Virus record (IMG/VR): IMGVR_UViG_3300046010_008436
Location: 1 to 27,710 of that record
DNA length: 27,710 bases
Direction: 5' to 3' (one strand)
DNA from: a virus
Part shown: one piece after another, positions 1,595 through 27,058 of the stretch
How positions within the stretch are numbered: position 1 is the stretch's first letter
Layout: each line of letters begins with the position of its first letter
Translations under genes and position numbers: made by a program
Notes under the pieces: generated by a model
What the model was told of the DNA's origin: nothing
The model's input: only the letters and a program-made list of their open reading frames with translations
Database searches by the model: none

Positions 1595-2473
1595 TTACTG
1601 ATCGATTGTATACGTTAATGTTTGAATATAATCTGATAATCTCTTAACAGCTTTCCATCCTAATTTATTATACGTTTCTTCCACATTACATAATGTATGC
1701 ATACCCTCTCCTTTACGTAAAGGAGTGAATGTAATGTTACTAGCAACTCCTTTAGTTATCATCATTGCCAAATCAATAATCTTAACTGGCTCTCCTCGTC
1801 CTAAATCAAAATTATCTCCTTTCCAATTACCTTCAGATATTTTAATAAGTCCTTCTACTATATCAGATACATGAGTAAAGTCTCGAGACTGTTGTCCGTC
1901 TCCTACAATTGTAATAGCATCGCCATCTTCATATTGACGAGAAAACTTGGCTACTACAGTTGCAAATTCTCCTTCTCTAGGTTCTCTAAGACCATATACA
2001 TTATAAAACGTTGCCATTGCAGTATTCATATTATATAATTCTGCATACATTTTTACTGCATCTTCGCCAACCACCTTTGAAAATGTATATGGAGTAATTA
2101 AATGCGATCCATGATTTTTAGATGATGTAGTAGCATATACAAATGATTTACAATTATTTCGTCTCGCAAAGTCTAACACATTAACCGTGCCCATTGCATT
2201 ATTAAAAAACCATTCTGCTGGGTAGTCAAAGGATGGCTGTATTCGCCCATGGGCAGCCAAATGAAATATTACATCAAACTCAATCCCATTATATACAGCA
2301 TCAATATTATCAATGCTTGTATATGAATATATAGCTTTAGAATTTGCATATTCCGTTGATGACGATATTGATGACAAATCATCAATAACATGTACATCAT
2401 GATTTAACTCTACTAATCGATCTACTAAATTAGATCCTACAAACCCAGCTCCGCCTGTTACTAATACTTTCAT
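1595..2473 (-). CDS. NAD-dependent epimerase/dehydratase (extended SDR)
   Basis: A 292-residue extended short-chain dehydrogenase that probably acts on a nucleotide sugar by 4-epimerisation, dehydration or reduction. Visible hallmarks are the Rossmann glycine motif GGAGFVGS (7-14), the NAD-binding DD (31-32), HLAA (71-74), the catalytic Ser region ATTSS (114-118) and the Tyr-Lys pair YTFSK (129-133). A C-terminal substrate-binding part carries FYNVYGLREP and a DFTHVSDIV block typical of GalE/WbpP-like epimerases. The length is slightly short for the family (about 310-340). It is the last gene of the sugar island and begins two bases upstream of nothing but a GT2 stop, so it is probably translated from the same message. 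The exact substrate cannot be read from the sequence. It could supply an epimerised precursor for either sugar route. Confidence 0.9.
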   Translation of the reverse strand: MKVLVTGGAGFVGSNLVDRLVELNHDVHVIDDLSSISSSTEYANSKAIYSYTSIDNIDAVYNGIEFDVIFHLAAHGRIQPSFDYPAEWFFNNAMGTVNVLDFARRNNCKSFVYATTSSKNHGSHLITPYTFSKVVGEDAVKMYAELYNMNTAMATFYNVYGLREPREGEFATVVAKFSRQYEDGDAITIVGDGQQSRDFTHVSDIVEGLIKISEGNWKGDNFDLGRGEPVKIIDLAMMITKGVASNITFTPLRKGEGMHTLCNVEETYNKLGWKAVKRLSDYIQTLTYTIDQ

Positions 2474-2474
2474 G

Positions 2475-3656
2475 TTATAATTTAATTAAGGTATGATCAT
2501 ATGTTTCTAAACTATTAACTATGATAGTTAAATAATCGACATTAAACTCTCCTATATCATTTGTATCCGTTATTAGATCAGATATATTTTGTAATAAATA
2601 AAATGTCTGATCAGTAATTCTATTAGCATCAAACACTACTACAACGTCATTCTCACCTTCAGGATAATTGTTACCAATATATAAAACTCTTTTTTGTAAA
2701 TCATATGAAGTATTCGATTGCTCTATTTCTATATAATCATGCGCTCTACCATTATTAAGCATTTCATCTACATATATTCTATCACACCATGGTTCTAAAG
2801 CTGCTAATAAAGATAGATTACAATTTTTTACTACAAATGCAATATTTCGCTTATGAGGCACAATTGGCATCATTAAATTTGAATGCTTAACATTTGATCC
2901 CCATTTTCTAATAAAATCCTTTGTGGAATTGCTCATTTCTTTTTTCCAAGCTTCGTGTCTAGCTTCATCACCATCAAATGACCCTGCTCCCCGACCCGTT
3001 AAATGATATACTAAAGAATTCCATGGCTGAATGAATTCATATCCAGCTAAAAACATCCTATTAAATACATCTGAGTCTTCTCTACAAGATTTTAAAATTG
3101 GATCATGTCCTCCAATATGCATAAAATCTTTTTTATACATCATCCACGGAGCAAATACTCCATTAGTTATTTTTGTATCAGTTAACTGATTTTTTACATA
3201 CTCGTTAAATTCATCTTTCTTCCACTCCTCGGGCCAGATACCAAAATCAATTAGAATTTTTTCTCCGGCATTCGGATGTAATGGAGGTTCGATCCTAGTA
3301 GCGCACACTACGGTTTTTTCTTTTAAATGATTATATGCTTTGAGATCAGCATCAATACCTAACATCATATCAGCGTGAAATATCATAAAGATATCCGTAG
3401 TCGATTGTTCGACACAATAATCATATGCCTTTCCAATGCCGTATAATCGTTTTCCTAAGTCAGGATTAACAAAGTATTTTACATTATATTCATCTTTAAC
3501 TGAATCTAGCCAATCGACAGTGCCGTCTTCATCACTATCAACAAACACAATTATATCATGATCTTTTCTATAAGCATTTTCTCTTATAGAAGGTATACAT
3601 GTTTTAAGATATCGTAAGTTCGACTTACTAGGTATACAAAAAGTTATTTTATTCAT
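2475..3656 (-). CDS. Glycosyltransferase family 2 with extra C-terminal domain
   Basis: A GT-A fold sugar transferase of 393 residues. The N-terminal half shows the GT2 pattern: KITFCIPSK at the start, VFVDSDEDGT (about 38-47), and a DxD-like segment HADMML near 100-105 that would bind the NDP-sugar and metal. A GGHDPILKSCREDSDVF block follows, typical of GT2 proteins that see an Asp/Glu acid-base pair. The last ~110 residues look like a separate alpha/beta domain of unknown role. I chose ATG at 3656 because it gives only an 8-base overlap with the upstream gene and starts right at the conserved KITFC strand. The longer frame would need a TTG at 3677. It is clearly paralogous to the GT2 at 14957-15853. 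Confidence 0.88.
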   Translation of the reverse strand: MNKITFCIPSKSNLRYLKTCIPSIRENAYRKDHDIIVFVDSDEDGTVDWLDSVKDEYNVKYFVNPDLGKRLYGIGKAYDYCVEQSTTDIFMIFHADMMLGIDADLKAYNHLKEKTVVCATRIEPPLHPNAGEKILIDFGIWPEEWKKDEFNEYVKNQLTDTKITNGVFAPWMMYKKDFMHIGGHDPILKSCREDSDVFNRMFLAGYEFIQPWNSLVYHLTGRGAGSFDGDEARHEAWKKEMSNSTKDFIRKWGSNVKHSNLMMPIVPHKRNIAFVVKNCNLSLLAALEPWCDRIYVDEMLNNGRAHDYIEIEQSNTSYDLQKRVLYIGNNYPEGENDVVVVFDANRITDQTFYLLQNISDLITDTNDIGEFNVDYLTIIVNSLETYDHTLIKL

Positions 3657-4377
3657 TGTTATTAATATTAGATGCAATTAAGGTTTTAAATTTTGTAGTC
3701 GACCAATCATGGCTTCTATCGATATAATGTACGTTAATATCTAAGTCATCGCCCGTAAAAGATTTATTGATATAGTCACTTCCTTGAAATCGTATATCGT
3801 AATGATTGTTCGATAATAGCGTATATAAATCATTTTCAGTTTCATATACAATCACATCATCGACAAAACGTAATGATTTTAATGTATTAACACGATCATT
3901 TATAGATAGAATAGGTTTTATTTTTGAACTTCTTTCTATAGAAGGGTCTGAATGAAGAAGTACTGTTAAGTGAGTGCAATATTTACTTGTTTCTTGAAAC
4001 ATATGCACATAGCCTGGATGTATTACATCAAACGCGCCTGCAATTACTCCGAGAATTGAATTCTTTTTAAACGTGTCGACAGTTATATTTTTATCATCTA
4101 CAAAAATATCATATGAAGGTTTTCCTAAAATCAATTCATGATATTTTACATTCCACGAATCCAATTGATTCTTTGCATGGATATAATGAACGTTATAAAC
4201 TTTATGTATATCTCCATTATACTGTCCCATTCCTCGTGCAGTAAATATTTTAATGGTATGTCCCTCATTATATAATTGATTAATGGATTCGATTACATAA
4301 TAATCGGGAATAGAAGAATTATAATCTTTATTATTTGTAATACATATTGTATTATCTAAATCAAAACAGTATATCAT
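3649..4377 (-). CDS. Fused HAD phosphatase / sugar nucleotidyltransferase
   Basis: A 242-residue two-domain enzyme. Residues 1-100 are a HAD phosphatase like capsule proteins BcbF/EcbF: FDLDNT (5-10, with nucleophile D6 and D8), FTARGM (45-50), and K86 with VDD (93-95). Residues 108-235 are a cytidylyltransferase-fold domain, as in TagD or the C-terminal half of HldE: GAFDVIHPGY (114-123), SINDR (158-162) and the late STTKF (226-230). The usual HxGH reads HPGY, so its last histidine is tyrosine. Placed directly after a GmhA-like isomerase and HddA-like kinase, it could do the GmhB-like dephosphorylation and the nucleotidyl transfer of NDP-heptose synthesis. ATG at 4377 overlaps the upstream stop as ATGA, favouring it over ATG at 4410. 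Whether ATP, CTP or GTP is used is unknown. Confidence 0.87.
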   Translation of the reverse strand: MIYCFDLDNTICITNNKDYNSSIPDYYVIESINQLYNEGHTIKIFTARGMGQYNGDIHKVYNVHYIHAKNQLDSWNVKYHELILGKPSYDIFVDDKNITVDTFKKNSILGVIAGAFDVIHPGYVHMFQETSKYCTHLTVLLHSDPSIERSSKIKPILSINDRVNTLKSLRFVDDVIVYETENDLYTLLSNNHYDIRFQGSDYINKSFTGDDLDINVHYIDRSHDWSTTKFKTLIASNINNNE

Positions 4378-4874
4378 ATTATTGAGTGTAATATTAACTC
4401 GTGTATACATTCTACAATCCCATAGTCACTGCTATCAACATAAAAACTTAACAATGACTTCTCCGTAAAATTAATATTTAGTTTATTGGTATTTGAAAAC
4501 CCTGATAATATTATGATAGGAATATTATTTTCTATACAATATTGCGCCGCATTTAATATGTTAGCAGAGTTTCCTGAAGATGATATTAGTATAACTAATG
4601 TTTGCTCAGTCGTAAAATGCTCAATATATTTAGCGTACGCACTATCCCATCCATAATCATTTGCATAACAACTCATTCGTGCAGAATCTCCAAAACATAA
4701 CGCTCGCTTACCTAACGCTTTTGTATAATCTTCGGCAATATGACAACTGATTGCATTGCTGCCGCCATTGCCTAAGATTATAATATCATGATAGCTATCT
4801 ATGATAGACTTTAATTTATCTAAATCATCTTGCGATATTCTATCTAAACAATGTTTATACGTATTTAGTATCAT
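4374..4874 (-). CDS. gmhA: SIS-domain isomerase, GmhA-like (sedoheptulose 7-phosphate isomerase)
   Basis: A 166-residue single SIS domain. GmhA converts D-sedoheptulose 7-phosphate into D-glycero-D-manno-heptose 7-phosphate, the first step of nucleotide-heptose synthesis. Visible signatures are the phosphate-binding GNGGS (35-39), then HIAED with E48 in the place of the GmhA catalytic glutamate, the second phosphate loop ISSSGNS (97-103), and a C-terminal ECIHEL (155-160) with H158 in the place of the catalytic histidine. It is a little shorter than E. coli GmhA (192). It overlaps the kinase upstream by 20 bases and the phosphatase/nucleotidyltransferase downstream by 4, so the three are presumably made together. 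A different ketose-phosphate substrate cannot be excluded. Confidence 0.88.
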   Translation of the reverse strand: MILNTYKHCLDRISQDDLDKLKSIIDSYHDIIILGNGGSNAISCHIAEDYTKALGKRALCFGDSARMSCYANDYGWDSAYAKYIEHFTTEQTLVILISSSGNSANILNAAQYCIENNIPIIILSGFSNTNKLNINFTEKSLLSFYVDSSDYGIVECIHELILHSII

Positions 4875-5823
4875 ATAAGTTAGTTGTAGTTAATCCATTA
4901 TTGGATATATGAATTTTATTTACATTAATATATGAATTTCTTATGATAGATTCTTTATCTTTTTCAGTAAATATTAAAAAGTATCCGCCATTACCAGCTC
5001 CTAATAACTTATGCGATAGTACATTAGGATCGTTAATTAATTTATTATCTAAGTCGATTAATAATTCATTTTTGCAAATATATTTTGAAGTTTCTTTTTT
5101 ATTCGACCATGTTCTATTAATAACTGTATGGAATAGATTTAAATCTGACGTGTTAATTGCCGATTCTAAATCTTCTACATCTTTAAGTAATGGGACTGAC
5201 TTATCAATATCTAGGCTTTCTAATACCGTCGTTGAACTGCGTAGAACCCCTGTATATATAAGATACATATCTAGCTGATTAAATATATTAGCGCTCAGAT
5301 ACCTAATTTCTGGGTCTTGATTATTATAAAATCTAATCTTTTTCAATCCACCCATCGAGCCATAAAAGTCTTGTTGACCGACTAATGGATTAAACGTTTT
5401 TTCAATCTTTTCAGCTAATTTACATACTTCAAATTCTGTAATATGTTCATTTCTTAATGCGTATATCGATTTAATTAAAGCTAATAAATATGCCGATGAA
5501 GAAGCTAATCCAGACCCTGCAGAAAATACATCTGAGGTCATAAAACAATTAAGATGTTCTACATTAAGATAGTCAAAACAGTTACGTACTAACTCATTTT
5601 CAATATCATATATATTATATACCGATTCTCTTTTAGAATAGTTAATAATATATTTCTTATCTAATGAAGTTGCTCCAAATATGTCTTGATGTAAAGTAAT
5701 ATACGTATGTAAGTTAGAAGCAAAACTAATTACGGCCCCAGCTCCATATTTTGATAAAAATTTAGGATGATCTGTAGAGCCTCCTACAAGAGATATTCTT
5801 AAAGGGCAAGCAGTTATTATCAT
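4855..5823 (-). CDS. hddA: GHMP kinase, HddA-like (heptose 7-phosphate kinase)
   Basis: A 322-residue GHMP-family sugar kinase. HddA phosphorylates D-glycero-alpha-D-manno-heptose 7-phosphate at C1 using ATP, feeding GDP-heptose synthesis. The N-terminal PLRISLVGGSTDHP (7-20) is the characteristic opening of HddA-type kinases (PLRISFxGGGTD). The ATP-binding GHMP loop SAGSGLASSSA (101-111) and the third GHMP motif LLGAGNGGYF near 275-285 are both intact. Length is normal for the family. It starts with an ATGA overlap on the preceding glycosyltransferase-like gene and is followed by the GmhA-like gene. Fucokinase-type proteins share the fold, but the GmhA neighbour makes the heptose role the best reading. 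Confidence 0.88.
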   Translation of the reverse strand: MIITACPLRISLVGGSTDHPKFLSKYGAGAVISFASNLHTYITLHQDIFGATSLDKKYIINYSKRESVYNIYDIENELVRNCFDYLNVEHLNCFMTSDVFSAGSGLASSSAYLLALIKSIYALRNEHITEFEVCKLAEKIEKTFNPLVGQQDFYGSMGGLKKIRFYNNQDPEIRYLSANIFNQLDMYLIYTGVLRSSTTVLESLDIDKSVPLLKDVEDLESAINTSDLNLFHTVINRTWSNKKETSKYICKNELLIDLDNKLINDPNVLSHKLLGAGNGGYFLIFTEKDKESIIRNSYINVNKIHISNNGLTTTNLYDTKYV

Positions 5824-21340: not shown

Positions 21341-21787
21341 TTATTTATTTTTTAAAAGTTTATCTACCTCTTTATCTGTTTTACCGTATTTTTTCACTAT
21401 TTCCTTTAACGATAACAGTCTATCTCCAGTATACAATTCTAAGTATTCCACAGCTTCCTTCTCTGAAATTAAGAAGTGCTTTGACAGTAATTCCACCAAC
21501 TCAGGACTGTATTTAGATTCTTTGCTACCTTTAACATACTTATTATAAGTCTTTTGCTTCGGAAGAATGTCTAAGTATAATTTATAAACTTCTTCTGGAG
21601 ATAACAAACCTATAGTATATTTTTGCAATTCATTTACTAAATCAACCCAATCCATATTCATAGATAACCATCTGTTAATCATATACGGAGTGAATGACTT
21701 TTTATCTTCATCACTCAGTTTACTCCAAGCAGTTTTCTTATCTGTAATATTAGATAAATGATCGAATATGGTAGCTGCTTTACTCAT
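21341..21787 (-). CDS. 62: Clamp loader small subunit, gp62-like
   Basis: A 148-residue helical protein corresponding to T4 gene 62, the subunit that pairs with gp44 to open the sliding clamp. The block WSKLSDEDKKSF (21-32) followed by PYMINRWLSM (34-43) is the best landmark: a similar PF-x-VNR-x-LS core marks gp62-like subunits of marine T4-like phages. LPKQKTYNKYVK near 75-86 is a second family-like segment. The T4 subunit is longer (187). I chose the ATG at 21787 because it overlaps the zinc-ribbon gene by 8 bases and starts just before the first family helix. The longer frame to 21853 adds 22 residues that match nothing I recognise. Gene order 45-44-62 supports the call. Confidence 0.82.
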   Translation of the reverse strand: MSKAATIFDHLSNITDKKTAWSKLSDEDKKSFTPYMINRWLSMNMDWVDLVNELQKYTIGLLSPEEVYKLYLDILPKQKTYNKYVKGSKESKYSPELVELLSKHFLISEKEAVEYLELYTGDRLLSLKEIVKKYGKTDKEVDKLLKNK

Positions 21788-22016
21788 TTGGAATGTCAAA
21801 TTCTGCATTAATGTTTCCGCACGCAGTACACATAAACACTTGAATTGGAACAATTTGATCGTCTTTAGCTCCTGTCAATAGTTTGCTAATCTTCTTAAAT
21901 TTCATAGCCGGCATAAACATATCATTCTCGCATCCTTCAGCATCGCATACAATAGATTTAGCTTTTGACAAATTAATCTTTTGTCCTTGTTGTCCTTGTT
22001 GTCCTTGTTTAATCAT
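21780..22016 (-). CDS. Zinc-ribbon protein with GQQ repeats, 78 aa
   Basis: A 78-residue protein. After the opening MIKQGQQGQQGQKINL comes a two-knuckle zinc pattern, C24 and C29 (CDAEGC), then C63 and C66 (CTAC). The middle (MKFKKISKLLTG, 38-49) looks basic and amphipathic. The Gly-Gln-Gln unit is encoded by a 9-base tandem repeat. The gene sits between 44 and 62 with overlaps and a one-base gap, so it is tightly linked to the clamp loader. Similar small ribbons are seen in large phages, but I cannot give a function. It might bridge the loader or DNA. Confidence 0.78.
   Translation of the reverse strand: MIKQGQQGQQGQKINLSKAKSIVCDAEGCENDMFMPAMKFKKISKLLTGAKDDQIVPIQVFMCTACGNINAEFDIPNE
21981..22007 (-). 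repeat. Three perfect copies of a 9-base tandem repeat
   Basis: The plus strand reads TTGTCCTTG three times in a row. Because the unit is a multiple of three, it lies in frame in the zinc-ribbon gene and encodes a Gln-Gly-Gln tail just after its start. Such short in-frame repeats can change length by slippage without a frameshift. Confidence 0.85.
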
Positions 22017-22017
22017 C

Positions 22018-22947
22018 TTAATATAATTCGTTAATAATTTTTACAAACATTGCGCACACGTTAATTTCTTTATCAACAACCATGGAGTCTTGATATTGAT
22101 GCTCTGCAATGATTAATATAATAGAAGCAATATGCCCTACTGCAAATAAATCTAAGTTGTCGTATAAGTGTCTATATAATGCAGTGTAATCTTTTACATG
22201 ACTATCTGCTAACAACTGACGTATTGAGGTAAATAACTGCTTCTTATCTTTAATAGTCTGAAGCATCTCAATAATCTTGTCCATATAATTAGACTCGATT
22301 AATGATTGCTTATCAATAGTCAATTCCCCATTAACTACTTGACGTTGGCAGGAATTTAAAATTCTTCTAATGTCTGGATATCCAGCATTTACAATACTTA
22401 CCAAATCTTCAGGCTTTACTGATACTCCTTCAATCTTTAAGATTTCATTTACTCGTATTGCTACATCCTTTTTACTAGGAGGAGTAATTGCAAATACCTG
22501 ACATCTAGATTGAATAGGATCAATAATCTTTTCAACGTAATTACATGTTAATATAAAACGAGTAGTCTTACTAAACGTCTCCATTAAATTACGAAGTGCA
22601 GCTTGAGCATTTGGAGTTAGATAATCTGCCTCATCTAAGATGATCAACTTCCATTGACGGAATCCAATAGTCGACGCAAAACTCTTAATCTTCTCTCTTA
22701 CAGTCTCTACATTGTTTTCATCTGATGCATTAATGTACATCAGATCACAATCAATGTTTTTTGCAATCAACTTTGCCATTGTAGTTTTACCTGTACCTGC
22801 AGATCCATAAAACAATAAATGAGGTACGTCGCCATTTTCGAGATATATCTTTACCTTATCTACAATAGACTGATTACCTACATACCCTTCTAGAGTATCA
22901 GGTCTATACTTCTCTACCCAAAGAGTGTGTTCTGAATTTCCAAACAT
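22018..22947 (-). CDS. 44: Clamp loader large subunit, gp44-like AAA+ ATPase
   Basis: A 309-residue AAA+ protein equivalent to T4 gp44 and to small RFC subunits. It uses ATP to load the sliding clamp onto primed DNA for the phage polymerase. Visible are VEKYRPDTLEGYVG (11-24), Walker A FYGSAGTGKTT (46-56), Walker B LIILDEAD (101-108), sensor 1 TCN (134-136) and the SRC arginine-finger motif (147-149). The C-terminal ~100 residues are the helical collar. Length is close to T4 gp44 (319). Neighbours are the 111-residue unknown upstream (adjacent, no gap) and the zinc ribbon downstream. Assignment is secure. Confidence 0.96.
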   Translation of the reverse strand: MFGNSEHTLWVEKYRPDTLEGYVGNQSIVDKVKIYLENGDVPHLLFYGSAGTGKTTMAKLIAKNIDCDLMYINASDENNVETVREKIKSFASTIGFRQWKLIILDEADYLTPNAQAALRNLMETFSKTTRFILTCNYVEKIIDPIQSRCQVFAITPPSKKDVAIRVNEILKIEGVSVKPEDLVSIVNAGYPDIRRILNSCQRQVVNGELTIDKQSLIESNYMDKIIEMLQTIKDKKQLFTSIRQLLADSHVKDYTALYRHLYDNLDLFAVGHIASIILIIAEHQYQDSMVVDKEINVCAMFVKIINELY

Positions 22948-24182: not shown

Positions 24183-25799
24183 TTAATATTGAGCTTGTTG
24201 TGCATTTTGATTATCCTTTTCATTTGGAATATCTACAATAGCACATTCAGCTGTCATAATCATTGAAGCTACCGAAGCTGCATTTTGCAAAGCAATACGA
24301 GTCACCTTTGTAGGATCAATAATACCTGCCTCAATCAAATTCTCAAACTGCTCTGTCTTTGCATTATAACCATAGTCAGCTTCTCCTGCCAATACATCTC
24401 TGATAATAACAGATCCTTCTACACCTGCATTTGCGCATATCTGACGAATAGGAGCTTCAATTGCCTTACGAATAATTTGAATACCTACTTCTTGATCTTG
24501 ATTAGCAGCTGTCAAAGTTTCTAGATTTTTAGAAGCTCTAATTAAAGCTACCCCGCCGCCAGGGACAATTCCTTCTGCAATTGCAGCACGAGTTGCGTGA
24601 AGTGCATCGTCTACACGATCTTTAATTTCTTTCATTTCAACTTCTGAGCTAGCTCCAATATAAATAATTGCAACGCCTCCTGCTAATTTAGCCAAACGCT
24701 CTTGTAATTTTTCAATCTCATAGTCTGACTTTGAAGTTTCAATTTGATTACGAATTTGTTCAACTCGTTCTACAATAGCATCTTTATCTCCGCTGCCATT
24801 AATAATTGTACAATTATCTTTAGATACAATTACTTTCTCTGCTTGACCTAAATGAGACAATTCAGCATCTTCCAATTTAATGCCTAGCTCATCTAATAAT
24901 ACAGTACCTCCAGTTAAAACTGCAATGTCTTGAAGCATATCTTTTCTACGCTCACCAAATCCAGGAGCCTTAACAGCACATACTTTCAAACCAGCTCTCA
25001 CTCTATTAACTACCAAAGTAGCTAAAGCTTCTGCTTCTACATCTTCTGCAACAATCAAAAGTGGACGTCCAGTGCCTACTGCTGCTTCTAAAATAGATAG
25101 GAAATCTTTCATAGCACTAATCTTCTTATCATAGATCAAGATTAATGGATTTTCCATTTCTACTTCCATCTTCTCTGAATTGGTTACAAAGTAAGGAGAT
25201 AGATAACCTCTATCAAACTGCATACCTTCTACCGTTTTAATTTCAGTGTCAGTACCTTTAGCTTCTTCTACTGTAATAACACCATCAGTGCCAACTACAT
25301 TAATTGCTTCTGCAATCAATTTACCAACAACAGTATCGTTATTAGCTGATACAGTGGCTACTTGCTCAATCTTGTTAATGTCATCACTAACAACTTTAGA
25401 TTGATCCTTCAATCCTGTTACCACATTTGCAACTGCAATATCCATACCACGCTTCATTTCAATAGGATTGATTCCAGTCTCTACTGATTTAATTGCATCT
25501 GTCAAGATAGCCTGAGCTAATACAGTAGCGGTAGTAGTACCGTCGCCTGCTTCATTTGCTGTCTTACTAGCAACTTCCTTAACTAATTGAGCTCCCATAT
25601 TCATCAATGGATCTTCTAACTCAATTTCTTTCGCAACTGAAACACCATCTTTGGTAATTACAGGTGCTCCAAATTTCTTCGCAATTACTACATTACGACC
25701 TTTAGGTCCTAAAGTTACTTTCACTGCGTTTGCCAAAGCGTCGACTCCTTTCTTTAAACCGTCTCGGCTTTCTGAATTAAAATACACTTGTTTTGCCAT
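24183..25799 (-). CDS. groEL: GroEL-type 60-kDa chaperonin
   Basis: A complete 538-residue group I chaperonin. It folds proteins in an ATP-driven double ring, normally with a GroES cap. The nucleotide-binding sequences are intact: [10 protein letters not shown] (28-37), [11 protein letters not shown] (48-58, D51) and [12 protein letters not shown] (85-96, D86), with [18 protein letters not shown] later in the equatorial domain. The apical and hinge blocks ([27 protein letters not shown]) are conserved. The protein resembles Bacteroidota GroEL. The C-terminus ends [22 protein letters not shown] and lacks the usual GGM-rich tail. It begins 2 bases after the TGT-like gene. No GroES gene is visible in the window, so it either uses host GroES or a phage co-chaperonin elsewhere. 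Probably helps fold virion proteins. Confidence 0.97.
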
Positions 25800-25801
25800 A
25801 A

Positions 25802-27058
25802 TTATGATTCTTTTGATTCTTTATTTTTTGATTTTTTAGATTTTTTCTCGTCTACTGGTTGAATAGCGTCAAAGTCAAAATATTCATTTCGTACTTCACG
25901 AGCTACATTCATTACATTTTCACCGCCAAACTTTACATAGAATGGACGATATCTTTCATATACCTGGATTGGATCAGGAGAGTTAAACATCTCTTCCATA
26001 GATCTTAAAATTTGAATTAGATCATTAGGAATCAATTCTGCTAACACTTCTAAAGGACAGCTATTAACTAAATTCTCAACATTCTCTGCAGTGTATACAT
26101 ACATATACAAATTATGATAAGTCAATCGAGTTACAGCTTCTGTCGAATAATTTTCAACAATATCCCAAGTTAAATGAGGCACACCTGGATGATCAATCAA
26201 AGAAGGAACGTGACCTGTCTTAGGATATCCTAATTGACTACCATCCTTAGGGAAGTACAACATATTAAATACTTGATCCTTCCAATTAGGACTCCATACC
26301 ATCTGACCAAATATAGGATATTGACCTGGAGATGAACTATCAGTCGATACAGTAATTCTATTATTGGTTAATTGATTCATCAGCTTTTGCATTTGAGCCA
26401 AAATGAAGAAGTCAGATACTTTAGAAATACCCAATAAGTGAACCCAAGTATTATTAGTCTTCTCGAACTCTTTCTCTTTCAACATCAATGCCAAAATGTA
26501 CATGAAGTCGACTAATCGTCTAGATGAACCAATACACCACCCTCCAAATTGCATATCTTTAACTGTATTGTACCAAGTAGTAAACTCAACAGGGTTTGAA
26601 CCTTGAACTACATTTAAGAAATTAGTCTTACCAGTTTGTTTCTTTTCAAAGTATTTGAAGTTATCCAAACTAATGTCTAATGACTCTTGAAAGCGACCTT
26701 CATAAGTCACTCGAGGAGGAATATCGATATTAGCTGCGATATCTGAATTGTGTTCTAACCATTCAAAAATTCTATCACGTAAAGCCATATCCCATTTCAA
26801 AGCACCAGTTGCAATTTGGAAACCACCAGAGTCTCCAAATACTAAAGTGTCTTGCAATCCCCATGTTTGTCTGATATTATCCTTTTTATACAAGTGACCT
26901 GCGGTCATCAAAAAGTATTTATATCTCCATTTCTCAGGCACACGGTCATCCCAAAATCTATACGGGACACCTGGTGCTACCTCCATATCTTTTGTCAATG
27001 GCGATGCATAAGCGCCTGACGATAATGAAGGGAAGTAAACTAATTTCTTTGCTGTCAT
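25802..27058 (-). CDS. TGT-superfamily protein, possible DpdA-like DNA guanine transglycosylase
   Basis: A 418-residue protein with the core of tRNA-guanine transglycosylases: VFGDSGGFQ (73-81, D76 as the base-contact Asp), ANIDIPPR (109-116) in the second Asp region, LNVVQGS (148-154), [12 protein letters not shown] (169-180), [11 protein letters not shown] (207-217) and VSTDSSSP (237-244), with D240 at the position of the nucleophile. I see no CxCxxC zinc site, which bacterial TGT has. Phage TGT relatives called DpdA insert 7-deazaguanines into DNA to resist restriction, and a viral context favours that reading over tRNA modification. No preQ0 synthesis genes are in the window. The C-terminus ends in a Lys/Ser-rich tail (about 403-418). 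It lies between a glycosyltransferase-like gene and groEL. Confidence 0.8.

Follow-up and report, generated by a model that had tools for sequence, protein, structure and literature searches.

A marine phage fusion of a HAD phosphatase with an HPGY-type nucleotidyltransferase: a candidate bifunctional enzyme of sugar activation

The window analyzed here, a stretch of 27,710 nucleotides from a marine phage (IMG/VR record IMGVR_UViG_3300046010_008436), carries a gene in which a HAD phosphatase is fused to a cytidylyltransferase-fold nucleotidyltransferase (NT). The signature HxGH of the NT domain reads HPGY, with a tyrosine (Y134) in place of the second histidine. As far as the literature covered goes, a phosphatase-fused NT with HPGY is a new architecture. 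On balance, we favor the view that the protein is a bifunctional enzyme that would catalyze the third and fourth steps of a phage sugar activation pathway, with D-glycero-D-manno-heptose as the most likely sugar. The features are collected in Table 1.

Table 1. Position of the fusion gene, its domains and motifs, and its neighbors in the window.
Feature	Position	Strand	Remarks
HAD phosphatase–nucleotidyltransferase fusion gene	3649..4377	−	242 aa; 253 aa with ATG at 4410
HAD phosphatase domain, EcbF/BcbF/AfhF-like	4063..4377	−	residues 12–116
Cytidylyltransferase-fold NT domain, TagD/HldC-type	3652..4062	−	residues 117–253
HPGY	4009..4020	−	residues 131–134 of the 253-aa form, 120–123 of the 242-aa form; Y134 for second His of HxGH
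RSHDWSTTKFK (contains STTKF)	3685..3717	−	residues 232–242; counterpart of TagD/CCT RTEGxST signature
HddA-like GHMP heptose-7-phosphate kinase	4855..5823	−	first gene of conserved trio
GmhA-like phosphoheptose isomerase, SIS domain	4374..4874	−	ATGA overlap with fusion gene
GT2 glycosyltransferase	2475..3677	−	directly downstream of fusion gene
SDR epimerase/dehydratase	1595..2473	−	downstream

Domain architecture

The gene lies on the minus strand; the plus strand of 3649–4377 contains many stop codons. The longest open reading frame over the gene in the window translation spans 3649–4410(−) and encodes 253 residues. Residue numbers are those of this form (P0001); the 242-residue form begins at its residue 12. 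The ATG at 4377 is the likelier start, as it overlaps the stop codon of the upstream GmhA-like gene (ATGA) and its methionine is at least 90% conserved among 38 fused homologues. A chain of 242 residues joining the two domains, as the sequence-only reading had described it, is thus real; the domain matches given below and its recurrence in about 97 viral contigs bear it out.

The HAD domain matches the EcbF-BcbF profile TIGR01689 with an E value of 2.2e-15 and 56.7 bits, which is under the curated cut-off of 162. The motifs of the EcbF/BcbF family test (DxDxT, T, K, and DD) are all present. The top solved relative in a phmmer search of the PDB is the D-arabinose 1,5-diphosphate phosphatase AfhF of phage HY126 (PDB ID: 9iqw; E 1.8e-16), and 1xpj is also matched. 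The NT domain scores 33.2 bits against PF01467 (CTP_transf_like), above the cut-off of 21. It has the profile and the fold of this family, but the second histidine of (T/H)xGH is missing. Its best curated match is rfaE_dom_II (TIGR02199; E 5e-17, 62 bits against a curated cut-off of 181.5), followed by the TagD model TIGR01518 (E 3e-10, 40.4 bits against a cut-off of 165.4); both scores lie below their cut-offs.

A model was predicted with AlphaFold2 from 38 homologues (mean pLDDT 85, pTM 0.56). It matches TagD (PDB ID: 1coz) with a Z score of 17.4 over 125 residues and HldC (PDB ID: 5xf2) with a Z score of 15.1, and Foldseek pairs the HAD part with AfhF at 38–39% identity. Given the low pTM, the model is not a reliable guide to how the two domains are placed relative to each other.

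Distribution and phylogeny of the HPGY motif

A single-protein search for related loci returned one partial relative, and exact back-translated signature patterns were therefore scanned in IMG/VR and in 84,980 cellular genomes; the number given for viral HPGY is a minimum. Viral contigs yielded at least 119 stretches with GAFDxxHPGY and 90 with GAFDxxHPGH as an exact pattern. Two IMG/VR scans that covered nearly all alternative residues (Gln CAR codons were left out) found none other than His or Tyr after GAFDxxHPG; a positive control was run for the pattern form of these scans. In the cellular genomes, GxFDxxHPGY was found in 56 stretches. Around 41 of these are GNFDxxHPGY genes of marine Bacteroidota and Gammaproteobacteria, nearly all of them stand-alone and 132–155 residues long. 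Another six are GAFDxxHPGY fusions, whose contigs may be viral ones that were binned with the genomes, and the remainder are mostly chance matches. HPGY as a one-off is thereby rejected.

The fusion of HAD with HPGY is seen in 97 of 119 GAFDxxHPGY stretches (among the matches listed), compared to 0 of 90 with HPGH (Fisher p 3.5e-38). Such recurrence means that the fusion with HPGY is not chance. As evidence of functional coupling, however, this association was rejected, since in a maximum-likelihood tree built from 138 domains after masking of the Tyr/His column, a single Tyr/His change suffices, i.e., one lineage. HPGY therefore defines a clade, although the main HPGY branch has moderate support (87), the alignment offers few columns, and the placement of two HPGY rows at the base of this branch is not resolved. 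The window gene and the bacterial stand-alone genes occupy one region of the tree, from which the fusion appears to have arisen within an older HPGY lineage.

By eye, the stand-alone genes follow a lapB-like gene in Gammaproteobacteria or lie beside otsA in Flavobacteriaceae (L229, L242, L243, and L221). A full-length GmhA-like match was present in 2 of 17 genomes with a stand-alone HPGY gene, genomes that may be incomplete. With so few carriers of a clear GmhA, the HPGY motif by itself does not point to heptose. A metagenome-assembled genome of Acetobacteraceae (L253) has an HldE-like reading frame with HPGY, in which the C-terminal STT region also looks changed. This is possibly a second case, decayed or mis-assembled.

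Conservation and the active site

In the HAD domain, residues D17, D19, T21, T57, K97, D105, and D106 are invariant among the 38 fused homologues. In the NT domain, G125, F127, D128, H131, P132, G133, K163, R173, Y189, E192, R232, H234, and S237 are conserved at 100% in 91 HPGY representatives, and so is Y134. Pairwise dN/dS has a median of 0.13 in the NT domain (maximum 0.33) and of 0.10 in the HAD domain, from pairs that are not independent and include some high dS values. Both domains are under purifying selection. With invariant active-site residues and a dN/dS of about 0.1, a decayed gene is rejected, in agreement with the sequence-only reading, which had also pointed to STTKF and other landmarks as intact. 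The conservation suggests that the HPGY nucleotidyltransferase is probably active.

The second histidine of HxGH acts on phosphates, and its replacement by Ala or Asp in FAD synthetase lowers kcat from 17 to less than 0.1 per min (PMC3509593). In NadD, 0.62% of activity is left on mutation of His-19 to Ala (PMC1249556). A natural working variant of HxGH is the G/AxHH of IleRS2, a more distant member of the superfamily (PMC10485003). A literature search for “HxGY” as the name of a nucleotidyltransferase motif found no such use.

The clade signature is RxHx(Y/W)STT. Its fifth position is Trp in the window protein (RSHDWSTT) and Tyr in most members. RTEGxST opens with an Arg that contacts the base in relatives and stacks on cytosine in TagD/CCT (PMC6060094). 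This arginine is kept in the window protein as R232; the signature of E. coli HldE reads FEDGCSTT. We considered R232 as the STTR5 arginine and rejected this, as the STTR5 hallmark of NTP-promiscuous heptose nucleotidyltransferases (HENases), which marks only a subset of them, is (F/L)XXGRSTT (PMC11573728). The window NT domain does not show this hallmark, and R232 is the TagD/CCT-type Arg. From R232, CTP is our weak guess for the nucleotide. The earlier suggestion that the tyrosine may alter nucleotide choice or metal use finds no support here, with the base-contacting Arg kept and the second histidine working on phosphates.

The conserved gene trio

Almost every PDB relative of the isomerase is a phosphoheptose isomerase (best E 5e-13), although the gene product scores 60.9 bits against TIGR00441, below the curated cut-off of 209.45. 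The top PDB match of the kinase is Campylobacter HddA (PDB ID: 4n3o; E 3.5e-19), with 75 bits against NF049969, below the curated cut-off of 600. Of the fused viral loci, 61 extend at least 2.5 kb upstream; all 61 have an HddA-type kinase on the same strand within 1.5 kb upstream, and 59 have a GmhA-type isomerase immediately upstream on the same strand.

Other fusions tie the HPGY domain to the same pathway. In two loci (L072, 8537–9433(−), and L267, 435–1367(−)), a GmhA-like isomerase is fused directly to the HPGY NT domain without a HAD domain. In the huge phage LR756511 (L008, around 4.0–5.4 kb), an HddA-like GHMP kinase is fused directly to it, and the stretch holds no HAD domain. Synechococcus phage SynMITS9220M01 has this trio as well, with a gene annotated as a heptose epimerase after it. 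Its protein QJT70212.1 shares the fusion, HPGY, the operon order, and approximately 43% identity with the window protein, but is annotated as hypothetical only. Heptose genes of this phage group have already been reported for SynMITS9220M01 (PMC7378029).

Elsewhere, the window encodes GroEL at 24183–25799(−) (PHROG 5725, E 4.6e-171; Cpn60, E 4e-77), adjoined by T4-type clamp loader genes at 21341–22947(−). At 25802–27058(−), it encodes a protein of 418 residues with no Pfam or strong PHROG match, in which a 13-residue stretch resembles, by eye, tRNA-guanine transglycosylase/DpdA (7-deazaguanine DNA modification). In Agathobaculum phage AB434P2 (L006, 1314–2853), a HAD domain is followed by a kinase-like region in one reading frame. 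It adjoins a HAGH nucleotidyltransferase and a deoxyuridylate hydroxymethyltransferase, and resembles another sugar-activation/DNA-modification set.

Proposed pathway and alternatives

In the pathway that we propose, the GmhA-like isomerase would convert sedoheptulose 7-phosphate to heptose 7-phosphate and the HddA-like GHMP kinase would add the 1-phosphate. The HAD domain would then take off the 7-phosphate, and the HPGY NT domain would join an NMP to the 1-phosphate. The resulting NDP-heptose would supply the cluster's many glycosyltransferases. Y134 has replaced the second histidine within one old lineage, and its hydroxyl presumably touches the α-phosphate, with less charge compensation. 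The sequence-only reading had the fusion couple removal of the 7-phosphate with nucleotidyl transfer. Coupling of a phosphatase with the nucleotidyl-transfer steps stands, on the HddA-GmhA-HAD/NT operon and the alternative fusions; the 7-phosphate itself we infer from the neighboring genes. All matches to curated heptose models are far under their cut-offs, which counts against this reading.

The proposed route shares GmhA-like and HddA-like enzymes and a four-step logic with the GDP-D-glycero-α-D-manno-heptose pathway (GmhA, HddA, GmhB, HddC). The HAD domain here, however, belongs to another subfamily than GmhB, and the NT domain has the cytidylyltransferase fold, whereas HddC has the GT-A fold. 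GHMP HddA enzymes yield the α-1-phosphate and HldC-type enzymes use the β form, which makes an HddA-type kinase with an HldC-type NT an unusual combination. With TagD (CTP:glycerol-3-phosphate cytidylyltransferase), the NT domain shares the fold, the first-position Arg of the RTEGISTT-like signature, and the Lys at position 242; TagD differs in its HWGH motif, in being stand-alone, and in its acceptor, and the identity is 24%. The HENases HldC and the C-terminal domain of HldE share the fold, the best curated match, and the heptose context, but have HxGH and an F/L at the first signature position, where the HPGY clade carries R. Three architectures of HENases are described, namely single-domain, kinase-fused, and isomerase/kinase-fused (PMC11573728); a phosphatase fusion is not among them. 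A literature search for a phosphatase–NT heptose fusion gave nothing relevant. AfhF and EcbF/BcbF share the HAD family and the sugar-bisphosphate context with the HAD domain, but AfhF is stand-alone.

Closeness to AfhF raises the question of whether the trio instead makes an NDP-pentose, e.g., NDP-arabinose for DNA or glycan modification, with the HAD domain taking the 5-phosphate off arabinose 1,5-bisphosphate. Arabinose modification of DNA is known in RB69-like phages (PMC6024577, PMC13390438). Escherichia phage MX01 has a HAD gene of this kind next to a thymidylate-synthase homologue and an NTP-transferase-like gene, a setting much like that described for arabinose DNA modification (PMC13390438). 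The gene neighborhood of this MX01 relative is a different one, however: such neighbors were not recognized in the window, in which the isomerase is GmhA-like and the kinase HddA-like. The HAD domain appears to be a sugar-bisphosphate phosphatase module that can be reused, and we regard a pentose product as unlikely. The bacterial genes may point to another acceptor again, a polyol or other sugar phosphate common to HPGY enzymes, which the phage trio would then make instead of heptose or pentose. Stand-alone HPGY genes adjoin otsA and a glucoamylase-like gene or follow a lapB-like gene (by eye), and a full-length GmhA-like match was absent in 15 of the 17 genomes tested. The phage domain is linked to GmhA and HddA homologues by both operon and fusion, and of the three alternatives weighed here this one seems to us the most improbable.

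The HPGY domain could also be a binding or scaffold domain without nucleotidyl transfer, the transferase coming from the host or from another phage gene. The second histidine is critical in the superfamily enzymes studied, SynMITS9220M01 has a separate annotated nucleotidyltransferase approximately 6 kb away, and the HldE-like protein of L253 combines HPGY with a changed STT region. Against this, the remaining active-site residues are strictly conserved, dN/dS is low, and the tyrosine itself shows no drift. In addition, small-genome marine bacteria retain stand-alone HPGY genes, and no other candidate transferase was recognized in the window. We therefore consider an inactive domain improbable, marginally more so than a pentose product, and retain the bifunctional enzyme of heptose activation as the preferred reading.

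Conclusion

Beyond this reading, we tentatively suggest a bolder one, which we hold to be possible but less probable than not. An active HPGY subfamily, with its own phosphatase fused to it in phages, would produce an undescribed CDP- or UDP-linked D-glycero-α-D-manno-heptose independently of HddC and fill the missing viral phosphatase step. A cross-kingdom survey did not find the heptose-pathway phosphatase in viruses (PMC11461863), and the fusion is a candidate for the enzyme that was missed there. The second histidine of HxGH is near-essential where it has been mutated, yet a tyrosine is fixed in its place throughout a lineage of phages, marine Bacteroidota, and Gammaproteobacteria. This lineage thus offers a natural test of how the nucleotidyl-transfer reaction is catalyzed.
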